Virus record (IMG/VR): IMGVR_UViG_3300046007_007724
Span: 1 to 35,786 of that record
Origin: a virus
DNA: 35,786 nt
Strand: one strand, 5' to 3'
The position numbers were made by a program, and so were the translations under genes. The notes beneath the pieces were generated by a model that did not search any database, was not told the origin of the DNA, and worked only from the letters and a program-made list of their open reading frames with translations. Shown in pieces: positions 5,320 to 33,508 of the stretch. The stretch's first letter is position 1; each line of letters starts with the position of its first letter.

Positions 5320-5348
5320 ATAATAAATATTTAATGATTAATTTCCAA
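5320..5348 (-). promoter_or_regulatory. Sigma70-like promoter for glycosyltransferase run
   Basis: On the minus strand: -35 TTGGAA (5343-5348), 17-bp spacer, -10 TATTAT (5320-5325). The -35 box lies in the last codons of the upstream glycosyltransferase gene. The -10 ends 12 bases before the next ATG, so the 5' leader would be only a few bases. Part of a set of eight similar sites in the window. Confidence 0.45.
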
Positions 5349-11559: not shown

Positions 11560-12008
11560 TTTATTCCTTTTAATAATTTCTTTTTTTCTCCTTCACTGTA
11601 TCCATACATCGTAAGTATGCGTTCACATTGCATTTTATCCATTAAATCTAAATAATCTGTAGCTTCTGTTTTGCTAACTTGATAATGTTCGGCAATTTGG
11701 TCGACTAACCCTTTTTCATATTTGTCTTCGGATTTGCCTTTAATGTATTTTGCAAATGCCTTGTTGTTTGGCAATATCTCATGATACAATCGATACGTTT
11801 CCTTAGGCCGTAATAATCCTATTGTATATGTTTGAAATTCATTGATCAATTCAGTTAATTCCATTCTCATTGATAAAAAGCGATTCATCATAAAAGGACT
11901 AAATGCCTTTTGATCCATTTCAGACCATTTCGACCAATCTTTCTTTTTATGAGTTACACCATCGATGAAATCAAACATCGTAGCCGCTTTCTTTTTTTCT
12001 TCTGACAT
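11556..12008 (-). CDS. Clamp loader small subunit, gp62-like
   Basis: 150 residues. FSPFMMNRFLSMRMELTEL (36-54) followed by YRLYHEILPNNKAFAKYIKG is the pattern of T4-type gp62 (yxPFMxNRxLS..., then the KRFxKWxK-like element), the small subunit that pairs with gp44 to load the sliding clamp. It also opens with MFDFIDGVTHKKKDW, as in the family. The gp44-like gene lies close upstream, separated only by two small genes. No ribosome binding site is evident. Confidence 0.72.
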   Translation of the reverse strand: MSEEKKKAATMFDFIDGVTHKKKDWSKWSEMDQKAFSPFMMNRFLSMRMELTELINEFQTYTIGLLRPKETYRLYHEILPNNKAFAKYIKGKSEDKYEKGLVDQIAEHYQVSKTEATDYLDLMDKMQCERILTMYGYSEGEKKKLLKGIK

Positions 12009-12013
12009 ATATT

Positions 12014-12229
12014 TTATAGTTTATATTTTTTACGGTATTGTTCTTCTAATTGTTTACCTAACCCCATTTCTAATATCACAGCATTATCTGGTACGCCTAT
12101 TATTCGTTTTGCATCTAAAATGTCATCAATTGTCTTGTTTCGAAACGATTTCATTTTAGTTTTTGCATTGCTCCTATTCGATGTTTTAAAAACAATCGTA
12201 ACTGTGCTTTTGTGATATTGAATTGACAT
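12014..12229 (-). CDS. Small basic protein of unknown function
   Basis: 71 residues, 13 or more Lys/Arg, including SNRSNAKTKMKSF and a basic C-terminus EQYRKKYKL. The middle, IDDILDAKRIIGVPDNAVILEMGLG, is a helix-strand unit without a family I recognise. Start overlaps the stop of the zinc-ribbon gene by one base. It sits inside the replication operon between clamp loader genes, so a nucleic-acid-related role is plausible but not shown. Confidence 0.6.
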   Translation of the reverse strand: MSIQYHKSTVTIVFKTSNRSNAKTKMKSFRNKTIDDILDAKRIIGVPDNAVILEMGLGKQLEEQYRKKYKL

Positions 12230-12435
12230 TATTTAAGTTTAGTTTTAATTGGTTGGAATTCTGGTGGTATTGCTCCACAATCATCACATCTAAATACTGG
12301 AATCGGCACCATCGTATCTTTGTCTGCACCAGTTAATAATTTAGATACTTTGTTAATTGCCATTACCTGACGAAAATATAATCCATCACATTCAGTGCAT
12401 TGGATTGGTTGCATATCTGCTGCTGTTATACTCAT
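12229..12435 (-). CDS. Small zinc-ribbon protein
   Basis: 68 residues with two CxxC pairs: CTEC (Cys13, Cys16) and CDDC (Cys50, Cys53), spaced as in a zinc ribbon. The linker FRQVMAINKVSKLLTGADKDTM is helical. Such ribbons often bind DNA, RNA polymerase or partner proteins. Overlaps the clamp loader stop by ATGA. Exact function unknown; a transcription or replication adaptor is an inference from position. Confidence 0.65.
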   Translation of the reverse strand: MSITAADMQPIQCTECDGLYFRQVMAINKVSKLLTGADKDTMVPIPVFRCDDCGAIPPEFQPIKTKLK

Positions 12436-13358
12436 ATTTCTCCTAATAAATTTACAAACATGGCCATTATATTGATTTCCTTATCAACCACACTTGCATC
12501 TTTAAATTGTGATTCAGCAATGATTAAAATGCATGGGGCAATGTGTCCATGTGCAAATTCATCTAAGTTATCATATAAAAACGTATACAATGGAGTAAAA
12601 TCTTTAACCTTGCTATCAGCAATACATTGACGAATTTTTGTGAATGCAGATTTCTTATCCGATGAATTTTTCAACATTTCTAATACTTCAGTCATGTAAT
12701 TTGCTTGTATTGCACTAGCTTTATCCAATTGCAATACTCCGTTAACTACAGAAGCTTGTGCTGCGTTTAAGGCTCGTCTGACGTCTGGATATGAAGCATT
12801 GATAATAGCCGCAATATCTTTGATATCATATTTAATTGACTTTTCTTCAAGCACCGTTACCAATCTTTTAGCAACATCCGTTTTATTTGGAGGTGTTATA
12901 GCAAATGTTTGACAACGAGATTGAATTGGGTCAATGATTTTTTCAACATAATTACATGTTAAAATAAAACGAGTTGTTTTGCTATACGTTTCCATTAAAT
13001 TGCGAAGTGCTGCTTGGGCATTTGGCGTCAAATAATCAGCTTCATCCAATATAATAATTTTCCAACGTTTAAAACCTACCGTTGATGCATATCGCTTAAT
13101 TTTATCTCGAACTGCATCCACTGAGTTTTCGTCAGATGCATTGATATACATTAAATCAGCATCAACACTTCCGGCAATAATTTTTGCTAAAGTTGTCTTG
13201 CCAGTACCAGCAGATCCATAGAATAATAAATGAGGAACATCGCCATTTTCGATAAAAATCTTAACTTTTTCGATGATATGTTCGTTACCGATATATCCAT
13301 CTAATGTGCTGGGTCTAAATGATTCAACCCAAAGTGTGTTTTCTGTGTTTCCGTACAT
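12432..13358 (-). CDS. Clamp loader large subunit, gp44/RFC-like AAA+ ATPase
   Basis: 308 residues. Walker A FYGSAGTGKTT (46-56), Walker B IILDEADYL (102-110), sensor 1 FILTCNY (131-137) and the SRC motif QSRC (146-149) are all present in order, as in RFC small subunits and T4 gp44. The protein binds ATP, opens the sliding clamp and places it on primer-template DNA together with the gp62-like subunit. The start ATG lies five bases after the dUTPase stop. Confidence 0.92.
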   Translation of the reverse strand: MYGNTENTLWVESFRPSTLDGYIGNEHIIEKVKIFIENGDVPHLLFYGSAGTGKTTLAKIIAGSVDADLMYINASDENSVDAVRDKIKRYASTVGFKRWKIIILDEADYLTPNAQAALRNLMETYSKTTRFILTCNYVEKIIDPIQSRCQTFAITPPNKTDVAKRLVTVLEEKSIKYDIKDIAAIINASYPDVRRALNAAQASVVNGVLQLDKASAIQANYMTEVLEMLKNSSDKKSAFTKIRQCIADSKVKDFTPLYTFLYDNLDEFAHGHIAPCILIIAESQFKDASVVDKEINIMAMFVNLLGEI

Positions 13359-14519: not shown

Positions 14520-15782
14520 TTAAAATTTAAAGAATTTATTGAAATTTCCGGCATCTGTAGTTGAAATGCTACTTCCGCCAAACTTTTTATATGTTTTAAT
14601 GTATTTTTCGTATGTGTTCAATGCCGCATCAGGATCGCCAAACATTTCATGCAATGATAATATTACATCGTATAAATCTTTTGGTACTACCGTTTCCAAC
14701 AATTCAACGTGACTATCTACCAACGAATTTATGTCTTCTGCAGCACGCACATATAAATGAGTGTTATGAACAACCATTCTAGGCATTGCTTCTTGCGAAT
14801 AACGGTCCAGGCCTGTTGCAGTCTGTCCTCCTAATAATTCGTAAGTGAAATCTTCACAAGCGGGGCATCCAATTGAACAAGGAACATGTTGAGTCAAATC
14901 AATACTAGTAGCATCAGCTCTTCCTTGTTTAATATGATTTTTTCTACGGTATTCTGCATTCTTTGGAAAATATAACTCAGAAAATGTTTGAGTTTTATAA
15001 TTTGTCGAATGCAAATATGTACCAAATACTGGATATTGTCCTGGCGATGAAGAATCCGTTGTAATGTATATTCTATTGCCGGTATGTTGATTCATCAATT
15101 TTTGCAATGTTGCTAAAATAAAGAAATCTGATATTTTGCTAATTCCTAATAAATGGACAAATTCCAATCTAGGATTTTCAAATTCTCTATTTTTTAACAT
15201 TAATGCTACCGCAAACATGAAGTCTACTAATTTTTGAGGACCACCAATCGCCCAACCTTGAAAGTCAAAGTGTTTAAATTTATGATACCACCAAGTATAT
15301 TCATCAGTATTTGAACCTTGCAACATGTTCAAGAATTTCGTTTTACCACTTTGATGTTTTTCAAACCAAGCAAAATTATCGAAACTAATGTCAGCACAAT
15401 GTGCAAATTGATTTCTATATTTATTCTTCGGCGGAATATCTAAATTTGCAGCTACATCGCTGTTTGCTTCCAACCAATGAAAGATTTTTTCTCGTAATTC
15501 ATTGCTATATGGCAATGCACCGGTTGCTACCTGATATCCTCCAGAGTCGCCAAATACCAATACATCTTTTTCTAAACCCAATTGGTCTCGAAAATCCATT
15601 TTTTTATAATGATGTCCCGCAGTAACTAGAAAATATGGGTGTCGCCATTCTTCTGGATATCGAGAATCAAAGAATTTTACGGGGGCACCGCTTTCAAATT
15701 TCATATCCTTCTTAAATGCCGATACCATTGAGCCGGCAGATAAAGATGGAAAATATATGAAACGTTTATTTTGTTCGCTCAT
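14520..15782 (-). CDS. DpdA-like DNA 7-deazaguanine transglycosylase (TGT family)
   Basis: 420 residues. It carries the tRNA-guanine transglycosylase hallmarks: DSGGYQ (79-84) for the first active-site Asp and base recognition, NLDIPP (113-118), GWAIGG (176-181) corresponding to the GGLAxGE loop, and TTDSSSP (241-247) where the nucleophilic Asp lies. Cys302, Cys306 and Cys309 (PCSIGCPACED) form the zinc site. TGTs swap guanine for a 7-deazaguanine; phage DpdA enzymes do this in DNA. FolE, QueD and QueE in the same window, with no sign of tRNA modification genes otherwise, favour the DNA role. A tRNA target is not excluded. Confidence 0.83.
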   Translation of the reverse strand: MSEQNKRFIYFPSLSAGSMVSAFKKDMKFESGAPVKFFDSRYPEEWRHPYFLVTAGHHYKKMDFRDQLGLEKDVLVFGDSGGYQVATGALPYSNELREKIFHWLEANSDVAANLDIPPKNKYRNQFAHCADISFDNFAWFEKHQSGKTKFLNMLQGSNTDEYTWWYHKFKHFDFQGWAIGGPQKLVDFMFAVALMLKNREFENPRLEFVHLLGISKISDFFILATLQKLMNQHTGNRIYITTDSSSPGQYPVFGTYLHSTNYKTQTFSELYFPKNAEYRRKNHIKQGRADATSIDLTQHVPCSIGCPACEDFTYELLGGQTATGLDRYSQEAMPRMVVHNTHLYVRAAEDINSLVDSHVELLETVVPKDLYDVILSLHEMFGDPDAALNTYEKYIKTYKKFGGSSISTTDAGNFNKFFKF

Positions 15783-16797
15783 TGTATTCCTTTAGTTTAT
15801 TAATTAATTGTTTTGCTGAAAAAAAGTTGTTATGTAATTTGCTTACCAATTGTGCAATTGGTTCGGACATATCTCGTTGTTCGTATTCTAATATTGCCTT
15901 TACAACCGAATCGATTGTGTCGGCACGTTTAAACAACGGTTCATACATTTCCGTATAAGATAATCTATTTGGTACTAAAGGACATGCTCCAGCACAAGCA
16001 GATTCATACATTGATATTCCCAATGTTTCTTGATCTGCGAAAGATACTGCAAATTTAGATTTACGAAGCAATTCGTGATATTCTGCTTTGTTTAAATTCA
16101 TCTCCATTGCTACACAAAATTGATAATGACTCAATTCAGGTCGTTTTGCTAATTCTTGAAATAAATCTAATCGTTTCTCTGGAGCAATTCTATGTGGAAA
16201 TACAATAATGTTTTCTTTTTCTGACCATAATTTAGGTGCAATCATCATTTCTGTATATTCCATTGGCCAACCGGTTCTGTCAAATGTCGGATCCAAGAAA
16301 ATATCATATGTTTTACGCATTAAATTAAAATGTGCAACAGTTGCTAACCAATTGTGATTAAATGCAGCGATGAATGCTTGTTCCGTATGTCGTATCCATG
16401 GTTTATCTCCCACGAGACGCCCTAAAAAGTCATTTGGGTCATATGAACCCGCGTGCCATAATCCGTGCGTTACAACAGGAATATTTAGTAATTCACTCAT
16501 GTATTTAACGTTAATGATACCCGGATGCCACGCATCGGTAAATATGATATGGTCTCCAGGCTTAATTCCTCCTTTTGTGAACAATTCAGCTAAACGATGT
16601 ATCTGAGTTGCTTTATACATATTGGTACCACCAAAGTTTAAGAATGCACCTGGAGTTGTAGATTCTGGAATATTGAAATCTCCTTCAATTACTTCCACTT
16701 CGAATCCATTATCTCGAAGCAATGCCGGGACATGCCATTTCCATTCGCAGGTATAACGAGTTGGCACTGCTTCTAAATCTACTAAAAATATTTTCAT
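15766..16797 (-). CDS. GT-B glycosyltransferase next to DpdA-like gene
   Basis: 343 residues from the ATG at 16797 (KIFLVDLEAVPTRY), one base after the stop of the T-fold gene; an ATG at 16821 would add eight residues. The C-terminal half has IVFPHRIAPEKRLDLFQEL and DQETLGISMYESACAG, the E-x7-E donor site of family 4 glycosyltransferases. The start of the DpdA-like gene overlaps its 3' end by 17 bases. It is far from the other glycosyltransferase block, so it may act on modified DNA bases rather than on a cell-surface glycan. Substrate unknown. Confidence 0.75.
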   Translation of the reverse strand: MKIFLVDLEAVPTRYTCEWKWHVPALLRDNGFEVEVIEGDFNIPESTTPGAFLNFGGTNMYKATQIHRLAELFTKGGIKPGDHIIFTDAWHPGIINVKYMSELLNIPVVTHGLWHAGSYDPNDFLGRLVGDKPWIRHTEQAFIAAFNHNWLATVAHFNLMRKTYDIFLDPTFDRTGWPMEYTEMMIAPKLWSEKENIIVFPHRIAPEKRLDLFQELAKRPELSHYQFCVAMEMNLNKAEYHELLRKSKFAVSFADQETLGISMYESACAGACPLVPNRLSYTEMYEPLFKRADTIDSVVKAILEYEQRDMSEPIAQLVSKLHNNFFSAKQLINKLKEYNERTK

Positions 16798-16798
16798 G

Positions 16799-17149
16799 TT
16801 ATCTTTCAATGATTGCTCCATTTTCCATATCTTCCCATACTTCTACTTTGTAAAGCGATGGAAATGATTCTAATAGCCATTCTCCAATCATTTCACACGA
16901 CATCGAACCAAATTCCAATACATTTGTTTCAGCACCACTAAATCCAATTCTAAGTCCTCGCTGTATCTTGCGATTTAATAAAATGAATTCTTCATCTCGG
17001 TCCGTATGCGTTACATTTGCATAACATCGGAATCCAAACATATGTCGATGTCTATCCGATAAAAATGCTACCTCAGGAAAAATGTCTTTAGCATCGGGCC
17101 AATTATGAAACCCTTCAATGCTAAATGTTACTACTACACTATATTTCAT
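16799..17149 (-). CDS. T-fold protein, QueD/6-pyruvoyl-tetrahydropterin synthase-like
   Basis: 116 residues. FSIEGFHNW with His15, LSDRHRHMF with His34 and His36, and a closing VEVWED with Glu106 fit the zinc triad and substrate-binding Glu of the 6-pyruvoyl-tetrahydropterin synthase fold; CEMIGEWLLESFP fits the conserved PTxExLAxWI helix. The usual catalytic Cys and the Asp-His pair are not visible. It is therefore a QueD relative that may bind a pterin or deazaguanine without the normal chemistry. It is co-transcribed with the glycosyltransferase and the DpdA-like gene. Confidence 0.65.
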   Translation of the reverse strand: MKYSVVVTFSIEGFHNWPDAKDIFPEVAFLSDRHRHMFGFRCYANVTHTDRDEEFILLNRKIQRGLRIGFSGAETNVLEFGSMSCEMIGEWLLESFPSLYKVEVWEDMENGAIIER

Positions 17150-17154
17150 ACTAT

Positions 17155-17183
17155 ATTATAAGTAATTTATCTATATTATCCAA
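17155..17183 (-). promoter_or_regulatory. Sigma70-like promoter, apparently leaderless, for T-fold/GT/DpdA unit
   Basis: Minus strand: -35 TTGGAT (17178-17183), 17-bp spacer, -10 TATAAT (17155-17160). The -35 box lies in the last codons and stop of the DNA polymerase gene. Five bases separate the -10 from the ATG. Confidence 0.55.
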
Positions 17184-19692
17184 ATGAAAAGAATTTTTTT
17201 GCGTTATTATTTTCCGGAAAAGCTCCCCAATTCATTGCCGAATAAAAATCATCTAACTTGTTTTGTAGTTCTTGTTTGAATATTTTATTACGATCGATGT
17301 ATTGTTCAACGAATTCAACAGTTTGCGTTGGATCTTCATAACCTCGAAGTGCCATTGTATCCATTCCGTACGGATTATCTCCTAAATATGCCCATTTTAC
17401 TTTTTCTCCATTTTGAATTGGAGTTATGTCTTTTACATTGTGCATATGCAAGAAATCATTGAAATTGATTGCTGCTTTAACGTGTGCTGGAGTTCCTTTT
17501 AAGTATCCGGTAAATGGTTTGCGTCCTTTGATAAATTTTGAAATTTCTTTAACTCCGGAATTTTTCATTACATTCAATATTTGTGAATTTTTCAAACCAG
17601 ATTTGAATTTATGAATCATATCAGAAGTTGTAGTTTTATCGCGTTCTTTAAGAATGTGCCACAATGTTTCTTTCATTATTTTCTTGAAATCTTCTGGAAA
17701 TGATGACCTAACGACATCCAACCCTTTAATATCTAATTTATCCGTAGGTTTACCTTCTTTGAAAATAACCCATTGTGCATATCGTTTTTTTGCAATCCAT
17801 AATCCAGATTTAGCAATGTATTCCTGTTTAATTTGAAAACGATGTGTTTTAGTATTGTGGAATCGGTCTGAATATATATCATACATTGCATTTACTTTGC
17901 GTTGGACTTCTGATGCAATTTCATTAGTACGATCAATCATAAATTGTTCATCAGTTTCATCACAATCCGGATAACGTGCTTTGATTAAAGGCAATGAAGA
18001 ACAAAATGTCGAATCCGTGTCTGTATAGAATGCAAACTCGGACTTCATACCCGTTGCATTGATAAAATGGTCTTGTCCTATTTCTGCGGCATAATGATTG
18101 TTAATTACCTTTGCAGAAAATTTAATTACACTTTGACCCGTTGCTGTAATAGCACCTGCATTATCTAAATCGTGGAATCTAAACGTTTTAAGTCCTAATA
18201 CTCCATAAAATGAGTTAAGCAATACTTTTTGTGTTAACTGCAATGCATCATAAAATTTATACTCTTCAGATCCTACTGCATATTCATCTCGTTTATCTTT
18301 GTATTCAACGCGTTCGTCAAACCATTTTTCAAGAATCGTTGGTAAGAATCCTCGAATGTCTGTGCGATATACTGCTCCGTTACTTGCAACCGTATACGCA
18401 TTATCTTGCAACCAGGTGCGGACATCTTGTGCAAATGTGCCATCTGCAAATGTTACTTGAGTTGCTTCCGGTTTCAATAAGCAAGTCTCATCCCAATTAT
18501 TAATAACAGTAACTTTTGTTTCAGGAGAAATATTTAAACCCATAATGATGCTAGGATACAATGAAGTTAAATCTAAGTCATAAATCCATTTGTATAATCC
18601 GGGAATTGGAGGCATTACATATGCTCCTGCCAACGCATCGGCTTCAGTTTCTTCTTCAACGAAACGAAATCTTTTATTTGGTGCAACTAATCCGTTGCGT
18701 TTTAAATCTACAACTGCAGCTCCATCCAAATACTTAGAGGCATAATATACATCTTCATATGGAACATGTCCTTTGTGACAAATTGTGCGTGCTAATGGTA
18801 TTAATTGAAGTTTTTCATCTAAATCGTGAACTAAATTAACATCGACCATGTTGTATTCAACAAATTTGTTGATATCGGTTGCAAATAATTGATTCAAATC
18901 TCCGTCATATTCAACTTTACCTCGATTCAATTCAAATTTAGCAACGGTGTCTAAACGATAATTAGCAAGTTCCGTATATGTGAATTTTTTATACAATGTT
19001 AAATAATCTAAACTCGAAACTCCAAATATTTTGTATCTTTCGCGATGTTTATTCCATTCAACAATTCCAGCTGGCGACAATTTTTTTATTGCCTGTGCTC
19101 CTAGGATATTTTTAATACGATTAATCAAATATGGAATATCGTAATTATCTGTATTCCATCCGGAAATTACAGTTGGTTTAATTTCTGCAAATATGTTGAT
19201 AAATCGAGTTAACATGGTAGCTTCTGAAGTAAATACTTCTACTACATAACCATCTCCTGCAAAACCCGCACAATTTAATCGACGTTCTTCGTCTAATAGC
19301 AATACGCGTCTATCGTTGTTAAATTTATCGTAATAAGCTATTGATGTAATTCTAGCACGTGCTTCCGTTGCCGTTGAATATCCATTTTCATCTCGTTCAG
19401 TTTCAATATCAAAAAAGAAATCTCTATGTCCTTTTGAAACTAAATCCGATTCATAATACAAATCAATTAATGTACGAACTTCTTCATTAATATCCGATTC
19501 ATATGCAGCTGAATTATCTTTGTGATTGCCATCGACTTTTGTTAATCGGGTTCCATCCAATGATACACATTCTCCGGAATTATTTGGCAAATATGCATAT
19601 GGTTTGAATGGAAACTTTTGGTGTCCTAATTCATCATCCCAAACATGCATTATGCCTGTTTTTTTATCGTAACCTATTGATTGATATGCCAT
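17176..19692 (-). CDS. Family B DNA polymerase with 3'-5' exonuclease, gp43-like
   Basis: 838 residues (T4 gp43 has 898). Exonuclease motifs: FFDIETE (Asp95, Glu97), WNTDNYD (Asn180, Asp185) and YNMVD (Tyr280, Asp284). Polymerase motifs: DLTSLYPS (374-381, motif A), KVLLNSFYG (489-497, motif B) and YTDTDS (556-561, motif C). All catalytic residues are intact, so it should be the proofreading replicase of this phage. The ATG is three bases after the phosphoribosyltransferase stop. Confidence 0.97.
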   Translation of the reverse strand: MAYQSIGYDKKTGIMHVWDDELGHQKFPFKPYAYLPNNSGECVSLDGTRLTKVDGNHKDNSAAYESDINEEVRTLIDLYYESDLVSKGHRDFFFDIETERDENGYSTATEARARITSIAYYDKFNNDRRVLLLDEERRLNCAGFAGDGYVVEVFTSEATMLTRFINIFAEIKPTVISGWNTDNYDIPYLINRIKNILGAQAIKKLSPAGIVEWNKHRERYKIFGVSSLDYLTLYKKFTYTELANYRLDTVAKFELNRGKVEYDGDLNQLFATDINKFVEYNMVDVNLVHDLDEKLQLIPLARTICHKGHVPYEDVYYASKYLDGAAVVDLKRNGLVAPNKRFRFVEEETEADALAGAYVMPPIPGLYKWIYDLDLTSLYPSIIMGLNISPETKVTVINNWDETCLLKPEATQVTFADGTFAQDVRTWLQDNAYTVASNGAVYRTDIRGFLPTILEKWFDERVEYKDKRDEYAVGSEEYKFYDALQLTQKVLLNSFYGVLGLKTFRFHDLDNAGAITATGQSVIKFSAKVINNHYAAEIGQDHFINATGMKSEFAFYTDTDSTFCSSLPLIKARYPDCDETDEQFMIDRTNEIASEVQRKVNAMYDIYSDRFHNTKTHRFQIKQEYIAKSGLWIAKKRYAQWVIFKEGKPTDKLDIKGLDVVRSSFPEDFKKIMKETLWHILKERDKTTTSDMIHKFKSGLKNSQILNVMKNSGVKEISKFIKGRKPFTGYLKGTPAHVKAAINFNDFLHMHNVKDITPIQNGEKVKWAYLGDNPYGMDTMALRGYEDPTQTVEFVEQYIDRNKIFKQELQNKLDDFYSAMNWGAFPENNNAKKFFSFG

Positions 19693-19695
19693 ATT

Positions 19696-20202
19696 TTAAT
19701 TTATTTTATAAATGTCGTGTAATTCTCTTTGTATTCCGTTGTTGTCTAATCCATACCCGTATATAAACTCGTCATCAATATCAAAGCCACAGAAATCAGT
19801 TAAATCTACGCCATTTTTTCGTTTGAATAATGTAACAACTTTTACCTCAGCAGGTTGTCGGCTGTTTATCATGAACAACGCTTCTAAAATTGTTGTTCCG
19901 GTGTCGCAAATATCATCAACTAAATATACTTGTTTTCCACGTAAATCTAATTCCAATTCTTTGAGACATGTAATACCACCGGAGTTATCTTGTCCTTCAT
20001 ATGATTTTAAACGTATAAAATCAATTTCACTTGTAACTCCCATTGCTCTTGTTAAATCTGAAAAGAAATGTATTGAGCCATTTAAAATACAAATCATCAC
20101 CGGAGGCAAACTTGATGCTGTTTTTTTATAATCTTGTGTAATCTGTACAGCAAGTTGCGTTACGCATTTTGCGATTTCGTCTTTCGTAATGAATTTTTCC
20201 AT
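19696..20202 (-). CDS. Hypoxanthine/guanine phosphoribosyltransferase-like enzyme
   Basis: 168 residues. VYLVDDICDTGTT (92-104) is the PRPP-binding motif of type I phosphoribosyltransferases, and the N-terminal region MICILNGSIHFFSDLTRAM with KSYEG is typical of the hypoxanthine-guanine group. It converts a free purine base plus PRPP to the nucleotide, salvaging bases from degraded host DNA. In this context it might also act on deazapurine bases; that is speculation. Its start overlaps the preceding membrane-protein gene by 43 bases. Confidence 0.85.
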   Translation of the reverse strand: MEKFITKDEIAKCVTQLAVQITQDYKKTASSLPPVMICILNGSIHFFSDLTRAMGVTSEIDFIRLKSYEGQDNSGGITCLKELELDLRGKQVYLVDDICDTGTTILEALFMINSRQPAEVKVVTLFKRKNGVDLTDFCGFDIDDEFIYGYGLDNNGIQRELHDIYKIN

Positions 20203-20408
20203 AACCTGTATATTCCAAATAGATTGATTGTTATGATAACTAAACTTAAAACCATATGGCTGATATTTTGAATATGTAAATCATAAACAATCCAACCGAT
20301 ATCGCCTAATATCCAATTAACCATTGCAGTTTTTGTAAAGCCAGTTGCGTTGGTAACATATCCAATTAATACCAACGCAGTGCTTATCCATCCTAATATT
20401 TCTATCAT
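20160..20408 (-). CDS. Small membrane protein with three hydrophobic segments
   Basis: 82 residues with predicted segments at about 3-20, 30-44 and 50-69, then a basic tail (KNSLRKTKSQNA). The GW/GY pattern (ILGWISTALVLIGYVTNATG) resembles small three-helix proteins of the SemiSWEET/CBU_0592 sort, but I cannot assign a family. The start overlaps the GroES-like stop by ATGA and the stop lies inside the phosphoribosyltransferase gene. Confidence 0.6.
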   Translation of the reverse strand: MIEILGWISTALVLIGYVTNATGFTKTAMVNWILGDIGWIVYDLHIQNISHMVLSLVIITINLFGIYRLWKNSLRKTKSQNA

Positions 20409-20704
20409 GGACGCGTATTTATCATTGCAATTTCATGTTCACGAACTAAAACATATTCTCCTGAATTTAACTGCACTTTCTTTTGTGAACCTAAATTTCC
20501 GGAATAAATTTTTACTCGATCTCCGGTTTTTACAGTCATTGGAATTTTATTTCCAGTTTGAGTAAATAAACCGTCGCCTACTGCATAAACATCGCATTCG
20601 ATATAATCATCCAATGAATTCATTATGATAATACCACTTTGAGTTTTATCTTGTTTTTCTAATTCCTTAAGGAGTACTTGATCTCCGATTGGTTTCCAAT
20701 TCAT
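20405..20704 (-). CDS. GroES-like cochaperonin
   Basis: 99 residues. The start WKPIGDQVLLKELEKQDKTQSGIII is the GroES N-terminus plus mobile loop, with SGIII in place of the GGIVL tripeptide that docks to GroEL. VYAVGDGLF and VKTGDRVKI follow, and the end GEYVLVREHEIAMI is the closing strand. No GroEL is seen, so it would work with host GroEL, as T4 gp31 does for capsid folding. Strong ribosome binding site AAAGGAAC nine bases before ATG. Confidence 0.88.
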   Translation of the reverse strand: MNWKPIGDQVLLKELEKQDKTQSGIIIMNSLDDYIECDVYAVGDGLFTQTGNKIPMTVKTGDRVKIYSGNLGSQKKVQLNSGEYVLVREHEIAMINTRP

Positions 20705-20718
20705 AACTTGTTCCTTTT

Positions 20719-20967
20719 TTATTTATTATACATTTGAGTAACTGATTCCGTTGTTATGTTATTACCAACTATGCGACCCGTTACAGTGGATCCGTCAATT
20801 ATAACAACACACGGTACATTTCTTACACCGTATTGTTCACAAGTTGTTTTATTTGTGTCAACATCGATGAATTGTATTGGCAATGTTTGCGATAACATTT
20901 CCATTCTTGGTTTTATTGCTTTGCATGGTCCGCACCATGTTGCTGTGAAATATAAAATTTTCTTCAC
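20719..20967 (-). CDS. Thioredoxin-like protein, GTG start
   Basis: 82 residues, shorter than bacterial thioredoxin (about 105) and lacking its N-terminal strand-helix. YFTATWCGPCKAIKP holds the WCGPC active site (11-15), and VRNVPC the cis-Pro loop. It begins with GTG, well supported by GAGGAG seven bases upstream inside the end of queE. It probably supplies electrons to the class II ribonucleotide reductase encoded further upstream. Confidence 0.9.
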   Translation of the reverse strand: MKKILYFTATWCGPCKAIKPRMEMLSQTLPIQFIDVDTNKTTCEQYGVRNVPCVVIIDGSTVTGRIVGNNITTESVTQMYNK

Positions 20968-20969
20968 GT

Positions 20970-21752
20970 TTAAACTCCTCGTTTTGTATCAAATGCAATG
21001 ATGTGGTCTCTTCCGGTCATGTTATAACCATGTTCCGCACACATATCAAATACAATTGGATACATTTTAATTAATTCATCTCTTGTATCGCCGGCTGGCA
21101 TAATATAAGTTTTTTCTTTCGGTATCAATAATTCTACTCGAAATGCTTCGATTTCTTCAAGGTTTTCCGGTGTTCCATCCCATACTGGCTTATAATGAAA
21201 ATCCGAATGATACATAATCATTTCGCGAGTTGCTTTTTTATTCAATCTGAATTTATTGTGTTGATCTATCATTTTTTGGTCCGTAATAGTTCCTTGTGGA
21301 GTTGGAACTCCTACAACCGGGATACTATTAACAAATTTAGGACTGATGCTAACTAATCCAATTGGATAATCAGTTTCGATAAAATGTGAACCTTCGGTTT
21401 CGATAGTAATAAGAATGTTTCTTTCATGTGCAAAATGTGTCAGTTCATTTACTAATGCAGGATGCATTGTCGGAGAGCCACCCGTTAACATCATTTCATT
21501 GATATGTGGATTTTCGTCGTATATCTTGATAATGTCATTAAACGTAAATACACCTTTTTCCGGATGAATGCTTGTATACCAACTGTCACACCACCCGCCT
21601 TCTCCAAAGAAACAACGATGCGTACAACCTGTAGTTCGAACTGCTATAGTTGGCCTACCAAATCGAGATCCTTCACTTTGTACGCAACGATAAAGTTCTA
21701 CGATTGGCAATGTTTTTGTGTAATCGGTAATTCTTTTAGAATGGGAGGTCAT
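20970..21752 (-). CDS. queE: 7-carboxy-7-deazaguanine synthase (QueE), radical SAM
   Basis: 260 residues. VELYRCVQSEGSRFGRPTIAVR is the QueE N-terminal signature. Cys43, Cys47 and Cys55 (GCTHRCFFGEGGWCDSWY) would bind the 4Fe-4S cluster, with spacing CX3CX7C in place of the common CX3CX2C. LTGGSP (89-94) is the SAM-binding GGE-like motif, and IETEGS follows. It converts 6-carboxy-tetrahydropterin to 7-carboxy-7-deazaguanine. It lies two genes after QueD in the same operon. Its ATG overlaps the end of the preceding gene by 17 bases. Confidence 0.87.
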   Translation of the reverse strand: MTSHSKRITDYTKTLPIVELYRCVQSEGSRFGRPTIAVRTTGCTHRCFFGEGGWCDSWYTSIHPEKGVFTFNDIIKIYDENPHINEMMLTGGSPTMHPALVNELTHFAHERNILITIETEGSHFIETDYPIGLVSISPKFVNSIPVVGVPTPQGTITDQKMIDQHNKFRLNKKATREMIMYHSDFHYKPVWDGTPENLEEIEAFRVELLIPKEKTYIMPAGDTRDELIKMYPIVFDMCAEHGYNMTGRDHIIAFDTKRGV

Positions 21753-22083
21753 CGTATGTTTCTTTCGTTATTAATGTATCAATTTTAGCAGATAATTGTT
21801 TGAATTGAGTTTCTAAATCAACAAGCCTTTGCAATATATCTCCACGAGATGCACTTGATACTTCTGGCTTTGATTCATTTCCGAAATATTCATCTAAGAA
21901 TGATACCGGATATGTAGCTACCATTTTGTATTCTTCGCGAACTAAATGTTCTGGCAAAGGTTCATAAATAATTTTAATGCCTTTTGCTTTTGCTGCATCA
22001 TTTACTTGTTTACCTAAACCGGTTTGTCTGGATGCTTGTCCTCTGTAATCATACAAGGATTTATATTGTTCACTACTGCTCAT
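21736..22083 (-). CDS. Unknown protein with SSB-like C-terminal tip
   Basis: 115 residues from the ATG at 22083 (MSSSEQYKSLYDYRGQ); an in-frame TTG at 22110 would add nine residues but has little support. The first part SLYDYRGQASRQTGLGKQV suggests a small alpha/beta domain; residues about 80-105 (LQRLVDLETQFKQLSAKIDTL) form a coiled coil. It ends YDDLPF, closely like the acidic tip DDDIPF of bacterial SSB that recruits replication and repair proteins. Lies between QueD and QueE; role unknown. Confidence 0.6.
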   Translation of the reverse strand: MSSSEQYKSLYDYRGQASRQTGLGKQVNDAAKAKGIKIIYEPLPEHLVREEYKMVATYPVSFLDEYFGNESKPEVSSASRGDILQRLVDLETQFKQLSAKIDTLITKETYDDLPF

Positions 22084-22549
22084 ATATACTTGAATTATTA
22101 TCGTTTTCAAAACATTCTACTTTGATGCATTTACATCGACCTGCATCTGTTTTTGCTAATACTTCATTGAACTTGTCAAATACCAATTTAGCACACGATT
22201 CGGCACCCATTTTATCTAATACACGAAGTGCACAAATTCCTTCCATGGACATTGTTTGAAACAAATCTAAATATGGGTCATCTTTTTCAATTAGCAACGT
22301 ATGATCCCACATATAATCCATCCAAGATTTTAATCCGTTACCTTTTGGTGCATCTTTAAATCCACCGTAATCAACTATCCAATTCATATCGTCAAGTTGA
22401 TTTTCTTCAATTGGTTCGTTTGATGCAAACCAAACTTTGAATTTCAAAGCATATCCATGTAATAATTCGCAATGAGAATGCGACGCACGCCATTGTCTTA
22501 ATGCTACTGAATAATTTTCGAATCGTTTTGTTGAAATGTATCTTGCCAT
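22073..22549 (-). CDS. queD: 6-carboxy-tetrahydropterin synthase (QueD)
   Basis: 158 residues from the ATG at 22549, which follows AAGGATAAA; an in-frame TTG at 22570 lies inside the upstream gene and is less likely. His24 or His26, Cys27 and His31 (SHSHCELLHGY) cover the zinc and catalytic Cys region; Asp82-His83 (WDHTLL) is the catalytic pair; VECFE near the end holds the substrate Glu. The normal HGH is HGY, so one zinc His is replaced by Tyr. It turns dihydroneopterin triphosphate into 6-carboxy-tetrahydropterin for QueE. Confidence 0.82.
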   Translation of the reverse strand: MARYISTKRFENYSVALRQWRASHSHCELLHGYALKFKVWFASNEPIEENQLDDMNWIVDYGGFKDAPKGNGLKSWMDYMWDHTLLIEKDDPYLDLFQTMSMEGICALRVLDKMGAESCAKLVFDKFNEVLAKTDAGRCKCIKVECFENDNNSSIYEQ

Positions 22550-22550
22550 T

Positions 22551-22961
22551 TTATCCTTCTTTACTATCAAATTTATAATCGTCTGGAGTTGATGTTTGCA
22601 TGTTGCATTTTACTACATTGAAAGTGGTAAATGGACGTGTTACAATTTTTACAATGTCATTGCGTTTTAACATTTCCAATTCCGGACATTCTAATGATAA
22701 CATGATGCGACAACGATTTAACATTGTTGCTGGAATTGATTTCAATAACTCAGGTGTTACTTCCAACGTAACGATATATCGGTCATCTAACATAACTTCT
22801 ATAAGATGCCAATCCGGTTTTGCTGTTAAGTAACTAATACACAGATAAATGTGCGGATATTCATCCCAATTTTCTGGTACCGTAGTTCTTATGAATACCG
22901 AGTCGATATCTGCTAATGGTCCTTCTACTTCTTTGCCGTAAAAATATTCTGCTCCAAACAT
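22551..22961 (-). CDS. Unknown protein, first gene of the queD-queE unit
   Basis: 136 residues, soluble, strand-rich (HIYLCISYLTAKPDWHLIEVMLDDRYIVTLEVTPELL). RCRIMLSLECPELEMLKRNDIVKIV suggests a second beta unit. No catalytic motif or family recognised. It has its own promoter and its stop is one base before the queD start codon, so it is likely made together with QueD and may be a partner or a regulator. Confidence 0.6.
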   Translation of the reverse strand: MFGAEYFYGKEVEGPLADIDSVFIRTTVPENWDEYPHIYLCISYLTAKPDWHLIEVMLDDRYIVTLEVTPELLKSIPATMLNRCRIMLSLECPELEMLKRNDIVKIVTRPFTTFNVVKCNMQTSTPDDYKFDSKEG

Positions 22962-22973
22962 ATGTTTTTATTT

Positions 22974-23001
22974 ATTATATGAAATTAATCAATCATTCCA
23001 A
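22974..23001 (-). promoter_or_regulatory. Sigma70-like promoter for queD-queE unit
   Basis: Minus strand: -35 TTGGAA (22996-23001), 16-bp spacer, -10 TATAAT (22974-22979), with the same TTTCATATAAT core seen at 9645 and 10859. The -35 lies in the last codons of the dehydrogenase gene. Twelve bases separate the -10 from the ATG. Confidence 0.5.
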
Positions 23002-23909
23002 ACCAAAAAGCTACGAATAAATTTCGAATCGCCATTTCTATGCAAAGATTCAGCAAATGCTTGTTTGTAGTCTTTAGCATCATATGCATTTGTCCAAACC
23101 CAATCGACATCTAAAACTCCTTGTTCAATTAGTTCTGGAGTTCGTTTCATTATGATAGGAAATGATTTGGATCTAGGAGATGGAAATGAATATTGTAAAT
23201 TTTTCCATAATGGTTTCCAAAATGTGGTATGTACTGGTTGATTGAATGATGCAGCTAAATATATATGTGCATTATCGTTAGCGACATTTGTTACAAGTTC
23301 GTAATTTTCTTGTTTACCACTTAATTCCAAAATAACGTCATATGTATCGCAAGTGTCAAACGTAACAAATTTAGCGCCAATTCGGTTCCATTGTTCTTCA
23401 TTATGATTTCCAATTACATGAATTGATAACTTTGGCATTATATGTTTAAGATATTGTGCAGCCAAATTCGATACAAACCCAGATCCAACTATTAGAATAC
23501 GTGTCATGTCAGCATGATGATTCCAAAAATATAATATTTGATTTGCAATGTTTACTGAACAAGCAACTGGCTCAATGATGTATTTTGTACTCAATTCTGG
23601 TACTCGAGTTGTATTAGGTTCCGTTGCATAAAAATAAGGAGAGTATGCTAAATCATCTCGCGATGCAACAAAATCACCTACTTTGAATTCCGTTATATCA
23701 GCACCAACTGATAAAACTTCGCCTACTGATTCGTGTCCGAAACAACCGTAAGGAATTTCAATTTTACCGGTGTATTGGTCGATATCACTTCGACAAATTC
23801 CGGTGTATTTAGTTTTAATTAATATTTGATCGGGACGCATTTCGCCTAAATCGAAATCGTAATCATTGATAGTTTCACCTCCGAAACTATGAAATATTTT
23901 TGTTTTCAT
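22989..23909 (-). CDS. Zinc-dependent medium-chain alcohol dehydrogenase-like oxidoreductase
   Basis: 306 residues. TGICRSDIDQYTGKIEIPYGCFGHESVGEVLSVG has the catalytic-zinc ligands Cys39 and His59-Glu60 (GHE) in the GroES-like domain; VGDFVASRDD follows. ILIVGSGFVSNLAAQYL (about 135-151) is the Rossmann NAD(P) site. It lacks the four-Cys structural zinc lobe and is shorter than usual (about 340-350). Probably oxidises or reduces an alcohol/aldehyde. Located between folE and queD and overlapping the Gfo/Idh gene by 23 bases, it may modify a precursor of the DNA base or of a sugar. Substrate unknown. Confidence 0.78.
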   Translation of the reverse strand: MKTKIFHSFGGETINDYDFDLGEMRPDQILIKTKYTGICRSDIDQYTGKIEIPYGCFGHESVGEVLSVGADITEFKVGDFVASRDDLAYSPYFYATEPNTTRVPELSTKYIIEPVACSVNIANQILYFWNHHADMTRILIVGSGFVSNLAAQYLKHIMPKLSIHVIGNHNEEQWNRIGAKFVTFDTCDTYDVILELSGKQENYELVTNVANDNAHIYLAASFNQPVHTTFWKPLWKNLQYSFPSPRSKSFPIIMKRTPELIEQGVLDVDWVWTNAYDAKDYKQAFAESLHRNGDSKFIRSFLVWND

Positions 23910-24828
23910 CTAATATGTCTTTTATGTATGATACGGTTTGGGGTGACTCGGTAAATTCTTCTAATATTTGATGAATTTCAAAGTCATAAATTTGATGTTT
24001 TGCATATGTATCGGAATCTGCTGACATATAATCTTGCAACATGCTTTCATATGCCGATTCGGGACATAAACCCATTTCTAAATCCAAAATGCCATTCGTT
24101 GTATGTATTTTCCATTTAATAATATCAGCATCAATATCAAATTTCCAAGTTGCTATGCATTGTATGGAAATACTGTCAGTTTTGGCTTCAATACAAGCAC
24201 AATCATCTACATCGTAAATACCATTTTCTTGGAAATTACCATATGACGAATCATTTGCAACCGATTCCATATCATATTGCTGATGATGTATTGCAGATAT
24301 AACATGTAATGGCTCATTGCATAATATTTGTGCTGCACTTAATAAATGTGGCATCAAATCGCGAGATACTCCGCCGAATGCTAATGTTTCATTCGTAAAC
24401 CAACTTCCAGCTCCGGGTATTCTATTTTTATTTGCCCAAAACAATTGTATTTTGTTAATGTTTTCACGTGGTATAGAATTTAAAATGTTTCGGTATTGAT
24501 TATTTTTAACCATAAACAATTTAGTCTGTGGAAATGTTTTATAAAAACTTATCCACTCCCATAGATTTGCAAATCCAGGTTTTTCTACTACAATCCTAGG
24601 TACATTGCATTTTGCCATTGTCGTTGCAATTGGTTGATGTGTAAAATTTGGCGTACAAATAATACCCATATCAACTTGAACGTTACGCAATGCATCTTCA
24701 ATTCGAATAAAATCTGGATTCAACGATTTGTTAAAATCTACAGTAATTACATTCCAACCAATAGATTTGCAAACATCGACATACAACTTACCAATACCTA
24801 ATCCAACAATTACTACTGTCTTATGCAT
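23887..24828 (-). CDS. Gfo/Idh/MocA-family oxidoreductase
   Basis: 313 residues. VVIVGLGIGKLYVDV (5-19) is the Rossmann NAD(P)-binding loop, CTPNFTHQPIA (58-68) and VEKPG (81-85) are the hallmark motifs of the Gfo/Idh/MocA family, with Lys83 as catalytic residue. These enzymes oxidise or reduce sugars and related alcohols. It follows folE closely, with AAAGG as ribosome binding site, and overlaps the next gene by 23 bases. A link to sugar-modified bases is possible; sequence alone does not show it. Confidence 0.8.
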   Translation of the reverse strand: MHKTVVIVGLGIGKLYVDVCKSIGWNVITVDFNKSLNPDFIRIEDALRNVQVDMGIICTPNFTHQPIATTMAKCNVPRIVVEKPGFANLWEWISFYKTFPQTKLFMVKNNQYRNILNSIPRENINKIQLFWANKNRIPGAGSWFTNETLAFGGVSRDLMPHLLSAAQILCNEPLHVISAIHHQQYDMESVANDSSYGNFQENGIYDVDDCACIEAKTDSISIQCIATWKFDIDADIIKWKIHTTNGILDLEMGLCPESAYESMLQDYMSADSDTYAKHQIYDFEIHQILEEFTESPQTVSYIKDILDENKNIS

Positions 24829-25525
24829 TGTAACCTTTTATAAATTCGTAAAATTCAAATCGAGTACTAGAATCAGTCATAAATGCACCTGATAACTTTG
24901 CGGTTTTCATTGATGCACCGCGATGCTTTACTCCTCGACATGATACACAATTATGAGTTGCTTCAATCATAACTGCTACGCCTTTATTGTCGGTAATAAG
25001 TTCGTTGATTGCGTGTTGTATTGCTACTGTTAATTGTTCTTGAATTGCACCGCGTCTTCCAAAATGTTCAACTACTCGATTTAATTTACTTAAACCGACT
25101 ACATTGCCATTTTCTGCTGGAATATATGCAATATGAACTAATCCTTCAATTGTTTGATGATGATGACTACACATCGATGTTAATGGAATGCCTCCTTCAA
25201 ACACAATTCCATCATATCCGTCACTAGGGAAAGATGTGATATCAGACATTGGTTCGTAACGACCTTTCCATAAATCATTAACATATGCTTTTGCTACACG
25301 ACGAGGTGTATTATCTGAGTTTGGATCATTTTCCCAAACAACGCCCAATGCTGTTAAAAAATTACCATAATGATGTGCAGCATCGTCGATAATCTCTTGT
25401 TTCTCTACATCAGTTAATCTGGCATCTGGTCCGAACATTATTTGTTTTGTTGCTAATTGTGTTGAGATGCCATTAGCAAAGCCAGATTTAACTAATTCTA
25501 AATTTTTTCTTTGTTCTTTAGTCAT
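24821..25525 (-). CDS. folE: GTP cyclohydrolase I
   Basis: 234 residues. The zinc ligands are visible as Cys119 (TSMCSHHHQ) with the adjacent His residues and Cys193/Cys196 (HNCVSCRGV). VGLSKLNRVVEHFGRR and QEQLT are the conserved core. It turns GTP into dihydroneopterin triphosphate, the first step of 7-deazaguanine synthesis. It is the first gene of its block, with its own promoter, and overlaps the Gfo/Idh gene by eight bases. A folate role is possible, but QueD and QueE downstream make the deazaguanine route more likely. Confidence 0.95.
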   Translation of the reverse strand: MTKEQRKNLELVKSGFANGISTQLATKQIMFGPDARLTDVEKQEIIDDAAHHYGNFLTALGVVWENDPNSDNTPRRVAKAYVNDLWKGRYEPMSDITSFPSDGYDGIVFEGGIPLTSMCSHHHQTIEGLVHIAYIPAENGNVVGLSKLNRVVEHFGRRGAIQEQLTVAIQHAINELITDNKGVAVMIEATHNCVSCRGVKHRGASMKTAKLSGAFMTDSSTRFEFYEFIKGYNA

Positions 25526-25587: not shown

Positions 25588-26040
25588 TTACATGGTTGGG
25601 TCACCTGGAGTATCTATACCAGATGCATCATATTTTGGTAATTTAACTAAATTTACTTTGATTTGTTGTTCACTTAATGCCCAATTAGCAATTAGTCTAT
25701 GATGCCCGTCATATATTGCCATTTCACCATCGCTAAACTGAACAACATTGATTCTAGGAGCATTTTGTATGTTTGTGATAATTTGTTTTACTTTTTCAGC
25801 TTGTACGTTAGGTTGTGTTATATGAATATCTGCAATATTAACCATTTTAATATGATGTTCGTCTTCATGCCGTTCATATGTAACTATAACTTCATTCCAA
25901 TCATATTTAGACTTGTTAAAAACACCTTCTATATTTTTAGCATCCGCAAAAATTTTACCGGAAGGTAGTTTATCAACTCTAGTATAAGCTAATTCTATTG
26001 ATGAATTTGTTTCCTTTAATAAATTGCGTAGTCGTATCAT
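25588..26040 (-). CDS. CTS-like small protein with ParB-like core and C-terminal tag
   Basis: 150 residues in three parts. Residues 1-10, MIRLRNLLKE, match the N-terminal motif of three other proteins here and resemble capsid-targeting leaders ending in LxE. The core contains INVVQFSDGEMAIYDGHHRL (97-116); DGHHR with the surrounding strands resembles the ParB/sulfiredoxin nucleotide-binding or nuclease fold. Residues 136-150, KYDASGIDTPGDPTM, are shared with the adjacent gene. It lies 33 bases after that gene, and the gap holds a relic of an upstream gene end. Possibly a head-packaged effector; this is inference. Confidence 0.65.
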   Translation of the reverse strand: MIRLRNLLKETNSSIELAYTRVDKLPSGKIFADAKNIEGVFNKSKYDWNEVIVTYERHEDEHHIKMVNIADIHITQPNVQAEKVKQIITNIQNAPRINVVQFSDGEMAIYDGHHRLIANWALSEQQIKVNLVKLPKYDASGIDTPGDPTM

Positions 26041-26041
26041 A

Positions 26042-26080
26042 TTAATAAATATCTTTCAAGGTAGTATTTCCCTTTACATG
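26042..26080 (-). repeat. Relic copy of upstream gene's 3' end (HVKGNTTLKDIY-stop)
   Basis: On the minus strand, out of frame with the preceding gene, this encodes HVKGNTTLKDIY followed by TAA. The intact end of the Cys-rich gene at 26579-26617 encodes HIKGNTILKDIY-TAA. The 39 bases differ at six positions, mostly silent. A TGA lies just upstream in this frame and there is no start codon, so it is a non-coding scar. Both copies are followed by T-ATG-ATT of a MIRL(K/R)NLLKE gene. Confidence 0.8.
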
Positions 26081-26577
26081 TTTGGATCACCTGGCGTGTC
26101 GATGCCCGATGCATCGTATTTCGTTTGTGGTAGTTTAACTACTATTTCATCTCCATTAGTTTCAACTTTAGCACCGGGATAACTATGCTTAACATAACGT
26201 AAATATAAATTTGCTCTAGAACTATTATCAACTGCCCCTTGTTTTTTAACAGGAGTAAATACTAATGTATCAACATCTGGGTGTGTTTTTAAATCTTGTT
26301 TTACTATAGCAATTACAGTTGCCATGATTTTAAATATATCACCTTTATTAGTTTCTATATCATACCGTTCTTGGTCAGGATCTTCTTCATTAGGTACAAA
26401 AAATGAAATTTCTATTTCATTATCTTCATAATTGGTAATATGTACTGAGTATGGGTAATGGGATGTTTCGAAACCATAGTATCTTTCTTCATCATAAGGA
26501 CTTCCGTAGAATTCATATGGAAATGTCTGGGCAGTTGCTTCGCCTATTTCTTTTAATAAATTTTTTAATCGTATCAT
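26074..26577 (-). CDS. CTS-like small protein with shared C-terminal tag, unknown core
   Basis: 167 residues. It opens MIRLKNLLKE and ends KYDASGIDTPGDPNM (153-167), as does the next gene, but the core differs. The core has GDIFKIMATVIAIVKQDLK and DTLVFTPVKKQGAVDNSSRANLYLRYV, a pattern I associate with a conserved but unnamed phage domain. It lies one base after the Cys-rich gene's stop. Probably a head-packaged or effector protein by analogy with T4 internal proteins. Confidence 0.65.
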   Translation of the reverse strand: MIRLKNLLKEIGEATAQTFPYEFYGSPYDEERYYGFETSHYPYSVHITNYEDNEIEISFFVPNEEDPDQERYDIETNKGDIFKIMATVIAIVKQDLKTHPDVDTLVFTPVKKQGAVDNSSRANLYLRYVKHSYPGAKVETNGDEIVVKLPQTKYDASGIDTPGDPNM

Positions 26578-26578
26578 A

Positions 26579-26797
26579 TTAATAAATATCTTTTAAAATA
26601 GTATTACCTTTTATATGATGCGGTTCATATGGACAATGTCTACATCCATTTCCGCAACATTTACCTCTACGTACGTGAAATGATTCCGTAAAAACTCGAT
26701 ATCCATTTTCATAATAAAAGTCTGATGGAAGGAGCTTGTTTCCAAACTCCCTCACAAAGGCTTGTTGTATCCAATCTTTTGATGCAGACACTATCAT
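26579..26797 (-). CDS. Small Cys-rich protein, DUF5522-like
   Basis: 72 residues. YYENGYRVFTESFHVRRGK followed by CCGNGCRHCPYEP holds four Cys (47, 48, 52, 55) likely to bind metal. The pattern G-[YF]-CCG-x-GC-RHCP(Y/F) is that of DUF5522, which I associate with Bacteroidota and some plastid-bearing eukaryotes. Function unknown. Its start overlaps the ribonucleotide reductase stop as TAATG. Its last 12 codons are repeated as a relic at 26042-26080. Confidence 0.7.
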   Translation of the reverse strand: MIVSASKDWIQQAFVREFGNKLLPSDFYYENGYRVFTESFHVRRGKCCGNGCRHCPYEPHHIKGNTILKDIY

Positions 26798-33262: not shown

Positions 33263-33508
33263 TTAGTCATTTTCAATATCACGTGCAAGTTTTTCGATTG
33301 CTTTGATAATTGGAAAAATTTGACGATTATACATTTGTTGTTTACCAGGTTGTTCAGTGATGTCATCGGCATCATCAGCTGTCATGGTGGTAAGTTCAGC
33401 AACTGCATTTAAAATATGCTGATATACCTTTTTTTCAGAATCTGATAATGGACCTGTTGTTGATGCTTTATATTCGTGTTCTTTAAGAACGTTTTTTAAT
33501 TTAATCAT
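33263..33508 (-). CDS. CTS-like small helical protein
   Basis: 81 residues. MIKLKNVLKEHEYK carries the same N-terminal motif as the genes at 26577, 26040 and 11243. The remainder is helical and acidic (ADDADDITEQ). No domain recognised. A ribosome binding site AAGGAATT precedes the ATG. It could be another head-packaged protein or a scaffold-type protein; function unknown. Confidence 0.65.
   Translation of the reverse strand: MIKLKNVLKEHEYKASTTGPLSDSEKKVYQHILNAVAELTTMTADDADDITEQPGKQQMYNRQIFPIIKAIEKLARDIEND

Follow-up and report, generated by a model that had tools for sequence, protein, structure and literature searches.

The virus record IMGVR_UViG_3300046007_007724 of IMG/VR is a linear fragment of 35,786 nt (positions 1 to 35,786, hereafter the window) with a guanine plus cytosine content of 33.5% and with nearly every gene on the minus strand. 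It encodes a T4-like replication set comprising a family B DNA polymerase, a sliding clamp, a clamp loader, a DnaB-like helicase, a UvsX-like recombinase, a single-strand binding protein, a dUTPase, and a ribonucleotide reductase. For the genes between positions 14520 and 25525, an earlier reading of the sequence alone (the sequence-only reading) had proposed a pathway for the modification of DNA with 7-deazaguanine that lacks QueC and includes FolE, QueD, QueE, and an enzyme resembling DpdA and the tRNA-guanine transglycosylases (TGT). All four were recovered in our analysis, by family profiles, by their identity to proteins of Cellulophaga phage phiST and by a DpdA profile termed A5. Two genes of the module had been overlooked, one for a 116-aa protein with the fold of QueD and one for a glycosyltransferase (GT). 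The module genes and the accessory genes described below all lie on the minus strand.

Genes for the synthesis of 7-carboxy-7-deazaguanine

In the established chemistry of these families, FolE converts GTP to 7,8-dihydroneopterin triphosphate (H2NTP), QueD forms 6-carboxytetrahydropterin (CPH4) and the radical-SAM enzyme QueE forms 7-carboxy-7-deazaguanine (CDG). The GTP cyclohydrolase I FolE is encoded at positions 24821-25525 (PF01227, E = 2.1e-44; phrog_2197, E = 2.2e-61), contains the zinc motif CSHHH and is 69% identical to phiST CGPG_00069. The CDG synthase QueE (20970-21752) matches phrog_2076 'QueE-like' with E = 1.4e-48 and TIGR03365 with E = 5.7e-14, the latter below the family cut-off, and is 64% identical to phiST CGPG_00070. 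Its cluster motif reads CX3CX7C and not CX3CX2C; the same holds for phiST, while the QueE of Acidovorax phage ACP17 has the canonical spacing.

The QueD-like 6-carboxytetrahydropterin synthase (22073-22570) was identified by phrog_2389 'QueD-like' (E = 2.2e-31) and TIGR03367 (E = 2.7e-5) and shares 40% identity with the QueD of phiST. For this gene an internal ATG (MARYISTKRF) is a likelier true start than the listed TTG. The Cys, the Asp-His pair and the Glu of QueD are retained, but the HGH motif, which binds zinc in the E. coli enzyme, reads HGY. This exchange was also seen in the QueD proteins of phiST, ACP17, and BUCT-ZZ01, again with the catalytic Cys and the Asp-His pair retained.

A QueD-fold paralog next to the glycosyltransferase gene

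The 116-aa protein is encoded at positions 16799-17149. Its AlphaFold model, with a predicted local distance difference test (pLDDT) of 93.8, shows a T-fold of the QueD/PTPS type. The best match in the PDB is E. coli QueD (4ntk; Foldseek E = 1.9e-7; VIA Z = 13.1, root mean square deviation 2.0 over 106 residues), whereas a profile search of the PDB with the 116-aa family returned no match. The His triad of QueD (H15, H34/H36) and the substrate Glu (E106, corresponding to Glu110 of E. coli) are present, but the catalytic Cys27 of E. coli QueD is replaced by an invariant leucine (L30) and the Asp70/His71 pair is gone. Because the His and Glu residues are kept and the Cys, Asp, and His residues are lost, the protein looks fit to hold a pterin- or purine-like ligand and not to follow the mechanism of QueD.

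The 116-aa gene stays beside the module in close relatives and was found in twelve isolates. The protein of the window is 39% identical to phiST CGPG_00067. In work of Cui et al. from 2023, phiST reportedly carries the modified nucleosides dCDG and dDG, and a CDG decarboxylase, DpdL, is said to have been predicted; CGPG_00067 is probably this DpdL. By homology to the phiST protein, the 116-aa protein is probably DpdL as well and would then process CDG at the step that QueC otherwise takes.

The DpdA transglycosylase

The gene at positions 14520-15782 encodes a predicted DNA guanine transglycosylase of the DpdA2 superfamily. As a single sequence the protein gave no Pfam, no PDB, and no useful PHROG match, and TIGR00432 scored only E = 0.015. 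Relatives were detected at more than 280 places in viral contigs, the best 80 of which, 73-97% identical, were retained. The A5 profile was built from 31 DpdA relatives, including the DpdA of the window. Searched against the PDB, it detected tRNA-guanine transglycosylases (best E = 2.6e-4), which made up 50 of 51 matches. In a search of the genome of Vibrio phage nt-1, which is not represented in A5, the profile matched DpdA2 with E = 2.8e-57. PF01702 was found in 7 of the 31 members (best 3e-8). An hhalign comparison of the window DpdA with A5 is circular, since the protein is itself within the profile, and was not used.

Invariant across the relatives are D79-S-G-G-x-Q84, D115, H210-L-G213, and D243. 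The two catalytic aspartates of TGT, the Asp of the DSGGxQ motif and the later Asp nucleophile, are therewith both conserved as D79 and D243. The DNA of nt-1 carries dPreQ0, dADG, and dG+, and its DpdA2 inserts preQ0 and other intermediates (PMC6884629). By homology, the DpdA of the window is predicted to exchange guanine in DNA for a deazaguanine. One of the related phage contigs (L154, 224 kb) contains three DpdA-like genes (620-1819, 1967-3208, and 11993-13102) in addition to a GT and a 116-aa gene.

A module-specific glycosyltransferase

The GT gene (15766-16821) shares 17 nt with dpdA at one end and 23 nt with the 116-aa gene at the other. The AlphaFold model of its product (pLDDT 92.2) has a GT-B fold, and its matches in the PDB include sucrose-phosphate synthase (Z 26.3), BshA (Z 25.1), and tetrahydrobiopterin glucosyltransferase (Z 22.4), with MshA also close. 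Within the family R211 and E273 are invariant and K216 and E265 nearly so, as is typical of active GT-B enzymes. The fold, together with an EX7E-type donor motif and the Arg/Lys pair, identifies the protein as a GT4-type retaining glycosyltransferase. PF00534 was matched in 25 of 37 family members (best E = 1.1e-6), the protein of the window itself lying under the Pfam cut-off. Identity to the GTs of the isolates is low (22-43%), and among predicted viral structures only a protein of ACP17 and one other were close to the model.

In most GT loci the gene is on the same strand as the 116-aa or the dpdA gene and adjoins or overlaps one of them. When the GT profile was searched against the remaining proteins of the window, nothing was matched at E <= 10, including two other large GTs (5338-8039). 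Since no other protein of the window scores with this profile, the association does not reflect a generic GT signal. At positions 663-8039 this T4-like phage does have a run of roughly eight genes that encode glycosyltransferases and a methyltransferase-like protein, and these too go unrecognised by the GT profile. From the gene association and the plausibly active enzyme we infer that the GT may glycosylate the inserted deazaguanine.

A distant relative (26% identity) adjoins Gat-QueC, an archaeosine-type enzyme, in Xanthomonas phage PhiXhv-12. The tie of the GT family to deazaguanine genes thus extends beyond the class lacking QueC. The PhiXhv-12 cluster (PV764601, our L171; 582-9836) comprises genes for a Leu/Phe-tRNA transferase, a GNAT protein, Gat-QueC, a PIG-L deacetylase, the GT relative, and a MocA oxidoreductase, and could possibly encode a pathway to a hypermodified archaeosine running from GlcNAc via GlcN to an aminoacyl derivative. 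The PIG-L deacetylase was found only in this phage and was dismissed as a general partner of the module.

QueC is missing and the 116-aa gene takes its place

As the sequence-only reading had noted, QueC is missing from the window: PF06508 found no match anywhere in the 35,786 nt. This observation proves nothing by itself because the window is a linear fragment. We therefore turned to 33 other IMG/VR records with the same module, which range from 27 to 224 kb, are all marked 'linear' and may be incomplete, and to 18 phage records whose whole genomes were searched for QueC, the 116-aa gene, the GT, and DpdA. The E-values of the iterated profiles for the isolates were computed with their own members included. 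None of the 33 records has a match to PF06508, nor was QueC found over the cut-off in the genomes of Pseudomonas jumbo phage PA5oct, ACP17, Xanthomonas phage X1, Sinorhizobium phage Phosso, or Synechococcus phage BUCT-ZZ01. The suggestion that QueC might be encoded elsewhere in the genome is accordingly disfavoured, and a second, hidden QueC was given up as a candidate, as none turned up in module-bearing records of up to 224 kb. Among the twelve isolates with the 116-aa gene, QueC-family matches were restricted to Vibrio phage D479 (E = 6e-9) and, below the threshold, to X1 (E = 6.6e-4).

The phage genomes sort into distinct gene combinations. PA5oct, BUCT-ZZ01, ACP17, X1, and Phosso combine a DpdA2-superfamily enzyme with the 116-aa gene and the GT and have no QueC over the cut-off. 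Conversely, nt-1, Ps15, pf16, Vibrio phage 2.275.O, and Peetri have a DpdA2-superfamily enzyme with QueC and neither the 116-aa gene nor the GT; PhiXhv-12 has DpdA2 superfamily, QueC, and the distant GT without the 116-aa gene. The remaining phages (phiST, MA9V-3, Ahp1, Bakedbeans, RHph_I1_18, D479, and Roos) contain the 116-aa gene and neither a DpdA2-superfamily enzyme nor the GT, and all of them except Roos carry a short DpdA of the phiST type. Hence all 11 genomes with a DpdA2-superfamily enzyme possess either the 116-aa gene (five) or QueC over the cut-off (six), and in these phages the 116-aa gene replaces QueC. The replacement can be seen at a single site: the order QueC-DpdA-QueE in Ps15 (Menderavirus) corresponds to DpdA-GT-116aa-QueE in ACP17, a distant relative (PMC9025141).

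The GT follows the type of DpdA. A diverse set of 46 loci encoding the 116-aa protein includes 28 with the GT, none of which has a phiST-type DpdA, whereas 17 of the 18 loci lacking the GT do (Fisher p = 1e-11, without correction for kinship). In a tree built from the 116-aa protein, the presence of the GT switches roughly 10 times, with no fewer than five of these switches on well supported branches, and in five independent pairs the DpdA type never shifts against the rule. Clustering of the neighbouring genes revealed no other family as consistently coupled to the GT class as the DpdA2 superfamily.

Accessory and neighbouring genes

A hypoxanthine/guanine phosphoribosyltransferase-like protein is encoded at positions 19696-20202 (TIGR01203, E = 1e-41, just under the cut-off). 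In PA5oct and BUCT-ZZ01 homologs are encoded close to the module, and homologs were counted in 9 of 34 loci with the GT and in 2 of 18 without it; the enzyme could possibly salvage the guanine freed by DpdA. In Stenotrophomonas phage Ps15 (L173), a myo-inositol-1-phosphate synthase gene and a phosphoribosyltransferase gene are situated between FolE and QueC (3403-5138).

Two oxidoreductase genes are present, one of the Gfo/Idh/MocA type (23887-24828; PF01408, E = 8.4e-6), overlapping FolE by 8 nt, and one of the MDR/alcohol dehydrogenase type (22989-23909; PF08240, E = 3.2e-13). The MocA protein may be an accessory enzyme for the tailoring of a sugar; its match to the MocA protein of PhiXhv-12 is only marginal. 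The two genes occur together in some relatives only (L046, L048, L058, L100, L156, L167, and L169 of our survey) and were rejected as core genes of the module, only a minority of the relatives having both. QueF, considered as an alternative tailoring enzyme, was over the cut-off only in Vibrio phage 2.275.O and in no member of the GT class.

Beyond FolE, the otherwise unlike proteins at 25588-26040, 26074-26577, and 33263-33508 have a common N-terminal peptide (MIRLKNLLKE, MIRLRNLLKE, and MIKLKNVLKE), which we liken to the capsid-targeting sequence of T4-style internal head proteins. The first two also have the C-terminal sequence KYDASGIDTPGDP in common. A small Cys-rich protein with the motif CCGNGCRHCPY, similar to DUF5522, is encoded at 26579-26797.

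Discussion

On balance we favour a reading of the locus as a module by which the phage hypermodifies its DNA with a 7-deazaguanine made without QueC and probably glycosylated. The proposal of a QueC-less deazaguanine pathway for DNA is well supported. Of the explanations offered for the missing enzyme, we now favour the one in which the inserted base is an uncommon derivative of the carboxy form, because a QueD-fold paralog occupies the place of QueC. In the proposed pathway, FolE, QueD, and QueE would lead from GTP via H2NTP and CPH4 to CDG. The 116-aa enzyme would convert CDG to 7-deazaguanine, if it is DpdL, or to another base derived from CDG. DpdA would exchange guanine in the phage DNA for this base, and the GT would attach a sugar at the carboxylate or at C7, either once the base is in the DNA or while it is still free. 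The phosphoribosyltransferase may reuse the guanine set free in this exchange. The genes and their order, the predicted folds, the key residues, the missing QueC, and the co-occurrence of the families were observed directly, while the steps up to CDG and the base exchange by DpdA follow from what is known of these families. The reaction of the 116-aa enzyme and the transfer of a sugar, with its donor and its point of attachment, are those parts of the scheme which we infer.

The closest known system is that of phiST, which has homologs of FolE, QueD, QueE, and the 116-aa protein (39-69% identity) and no QueC. It differs from the window by a short and different DpdA (259 aa) and by the lack of a GT. 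The pathway of nt-1 and KVP40, leading to dPreQ0, dADG, and dG+, has the same DpdA superfamily and FolE-QueD-QueE in common with the window, but nt-1 has QueC (E = 5.7e-54) and neither the 116-aa gene nor the GT. ArcS is also present in nt-1 (PMC6884629). Measured against the preQ0-type pathway (FolE-QueD-QueE-QueC-DpdA), the window has the first three enzymes and lacks QueC. Phages able to carry CDG have been discussed before, reportedly with dCDG and dDG in the 2023 work of Cui et al., and in the case of Mycobacterium phage Bipper, which is without only QueC (PMC6884629). The combination of DpdA2-superfamily enzyme, GT, and 116-aa gene is found as in the window in ACP17, PA5oct, X1, Phosso, and BUCT-ZZ01, with a variable gene order and, in Phosso, with dpdA elsewhere in the genome; a limited literature search found no nucleoside reports for these five. 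T4 alpha-glucosyltransferase (1xv5, rank 50 among the PDB matches) is comparable to the GT of the window in its GT-B fold and in having a base in DNA as target, which for the GT is a proposal. Its acceptor is 5-hydroxymethylcytosine instead of the proposed 7-deazaguanine, and the closest folds of the window GT are others. The pathway to CDG and DpdA are thus of known kinds, while the set of DpdA2-superfamily enzyme, QueD paralog, and dedicated GT without QueC is, as far as could be checked, an undescribed variant. We found no literature on glycosylated deazaguanine DNA in a search that lacked most subscription papers and preprints and is therefore weak evidence for novelty.

The final base could also be unglycosylated dCDG or dDG as predicted for phiST, with the GT serving the tail, the capsule, or superinfection exclusion and merely hitch-hiking with the module. 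Loci of the phiST type manage without a GT, FolE, QueE, QueD, and the 116-aa protein are 69, 64, 40, and 39% identical to their phiST counterparts, and several other GTs are encoded at 663-8039. We nevertheless consider this unlikely, as the GT gene overlaps or abuts the 116-aa or the DpdA gene in many unrelated lineages, cleanly split by the type of DpdA, and is missing from the QueC-bearing DpdA2-superfamily phages nt-1, Ps15, pf16, 2.275.O, and Peetri. A supply of QueC activity by the host, as the sequence-only reading had allowed for, or by an unrecognised enzyme would let the phage insert ordinary preQ0, as DpdA2 of nt-1 does along with other intermediates (PMC6884629). Many hosts make preQ0 for their tRNA. 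Yet relatives that use preQ0 bring their own QueC, the phages with the 116-aa gene and a DpdA2-superfamily enzyme consistently do not, and a dedicated QueD-fold enzyme would serve no purpose, all of which makes a borrowed QueC improbable. That the TGT-like enzyme acts on tRNA instead of DNA would be in keeping with its membership of the TGT superfamily and with the annotation of the X1 and Ps15 homologs as queuine tRNA-ribosyltransferase. It is hard to reconcile with the presence in that superfamily of DpdA2 from nt-1, a phage with dPreQ0, dADG, and dG+ in its DNA (PMC6884629), with the position of the dpdA gene, which has the sliding clamp gene on one side and the DNA polymerase gene on the other, and with the finding that no member of the GT class has a QueF over the cut-off, so that we give this explanation very little credence.

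Several points weigh against a glycosylated, QueC-free base. Decarboxylated CDG offers no hydroxyl or amine side chain to a standard glycosyltransferase, which leaves the attachment point unexplained. Since 7-deazaguanine has no hydroxyl group, the sugar would need either C7, a pyrrole carbon with nucleophilic character, or the carboxylate of CDG as its point of attachment, unless the 116-aa enzyme catalyses a reaction other than decarboxylation. The identification of this enzyme as DpdL is no more than probable. Vibrio phage D479 has the 116-aa gene together with its QueC-family match, though with the other type of DpdA, and the IMG/VR records in which QueC is missing may be incomplete. Corrected for the tree, the association of GT and DpdA type comes down to the five independent pairs, which puts p < 0.05 out of reach.

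The known 7-deazaguanines of phages have small side chains (cyano, amido, aminomethyl, formamidine, carboxy, or none). To our knowledge, a sugar as a C-glycoside on C7 or as an ester on the 7-carboxylate would in either case be new for DNA. Whether a widespread class of phages, including an abundant freshwater T4-like group, PA5oct, ACP17, and others, replaces guanine by a glycosylated 7-deazaguanine, made through a QueC-free branch with a QueD paralog and a dedicated GT, appears to us about evenly balanced. If so, the T4-style strategy of glycosylating DNA would reach beyond the pyrimidines to guanine. We would expect a base with a sugar to stop many of the restriction and CRISPR nucleases, and the new DNA glycosyltransferase could be used for labelling. 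A measurement of the base would be feasible in the five unrelated isolates with the gene trio. The analysis further suggests a function for three families mostly annotated as hypothetical, and a QueC-free branch may offer a reason why QueC is lacking in many phages with a deazaguanine pathway.

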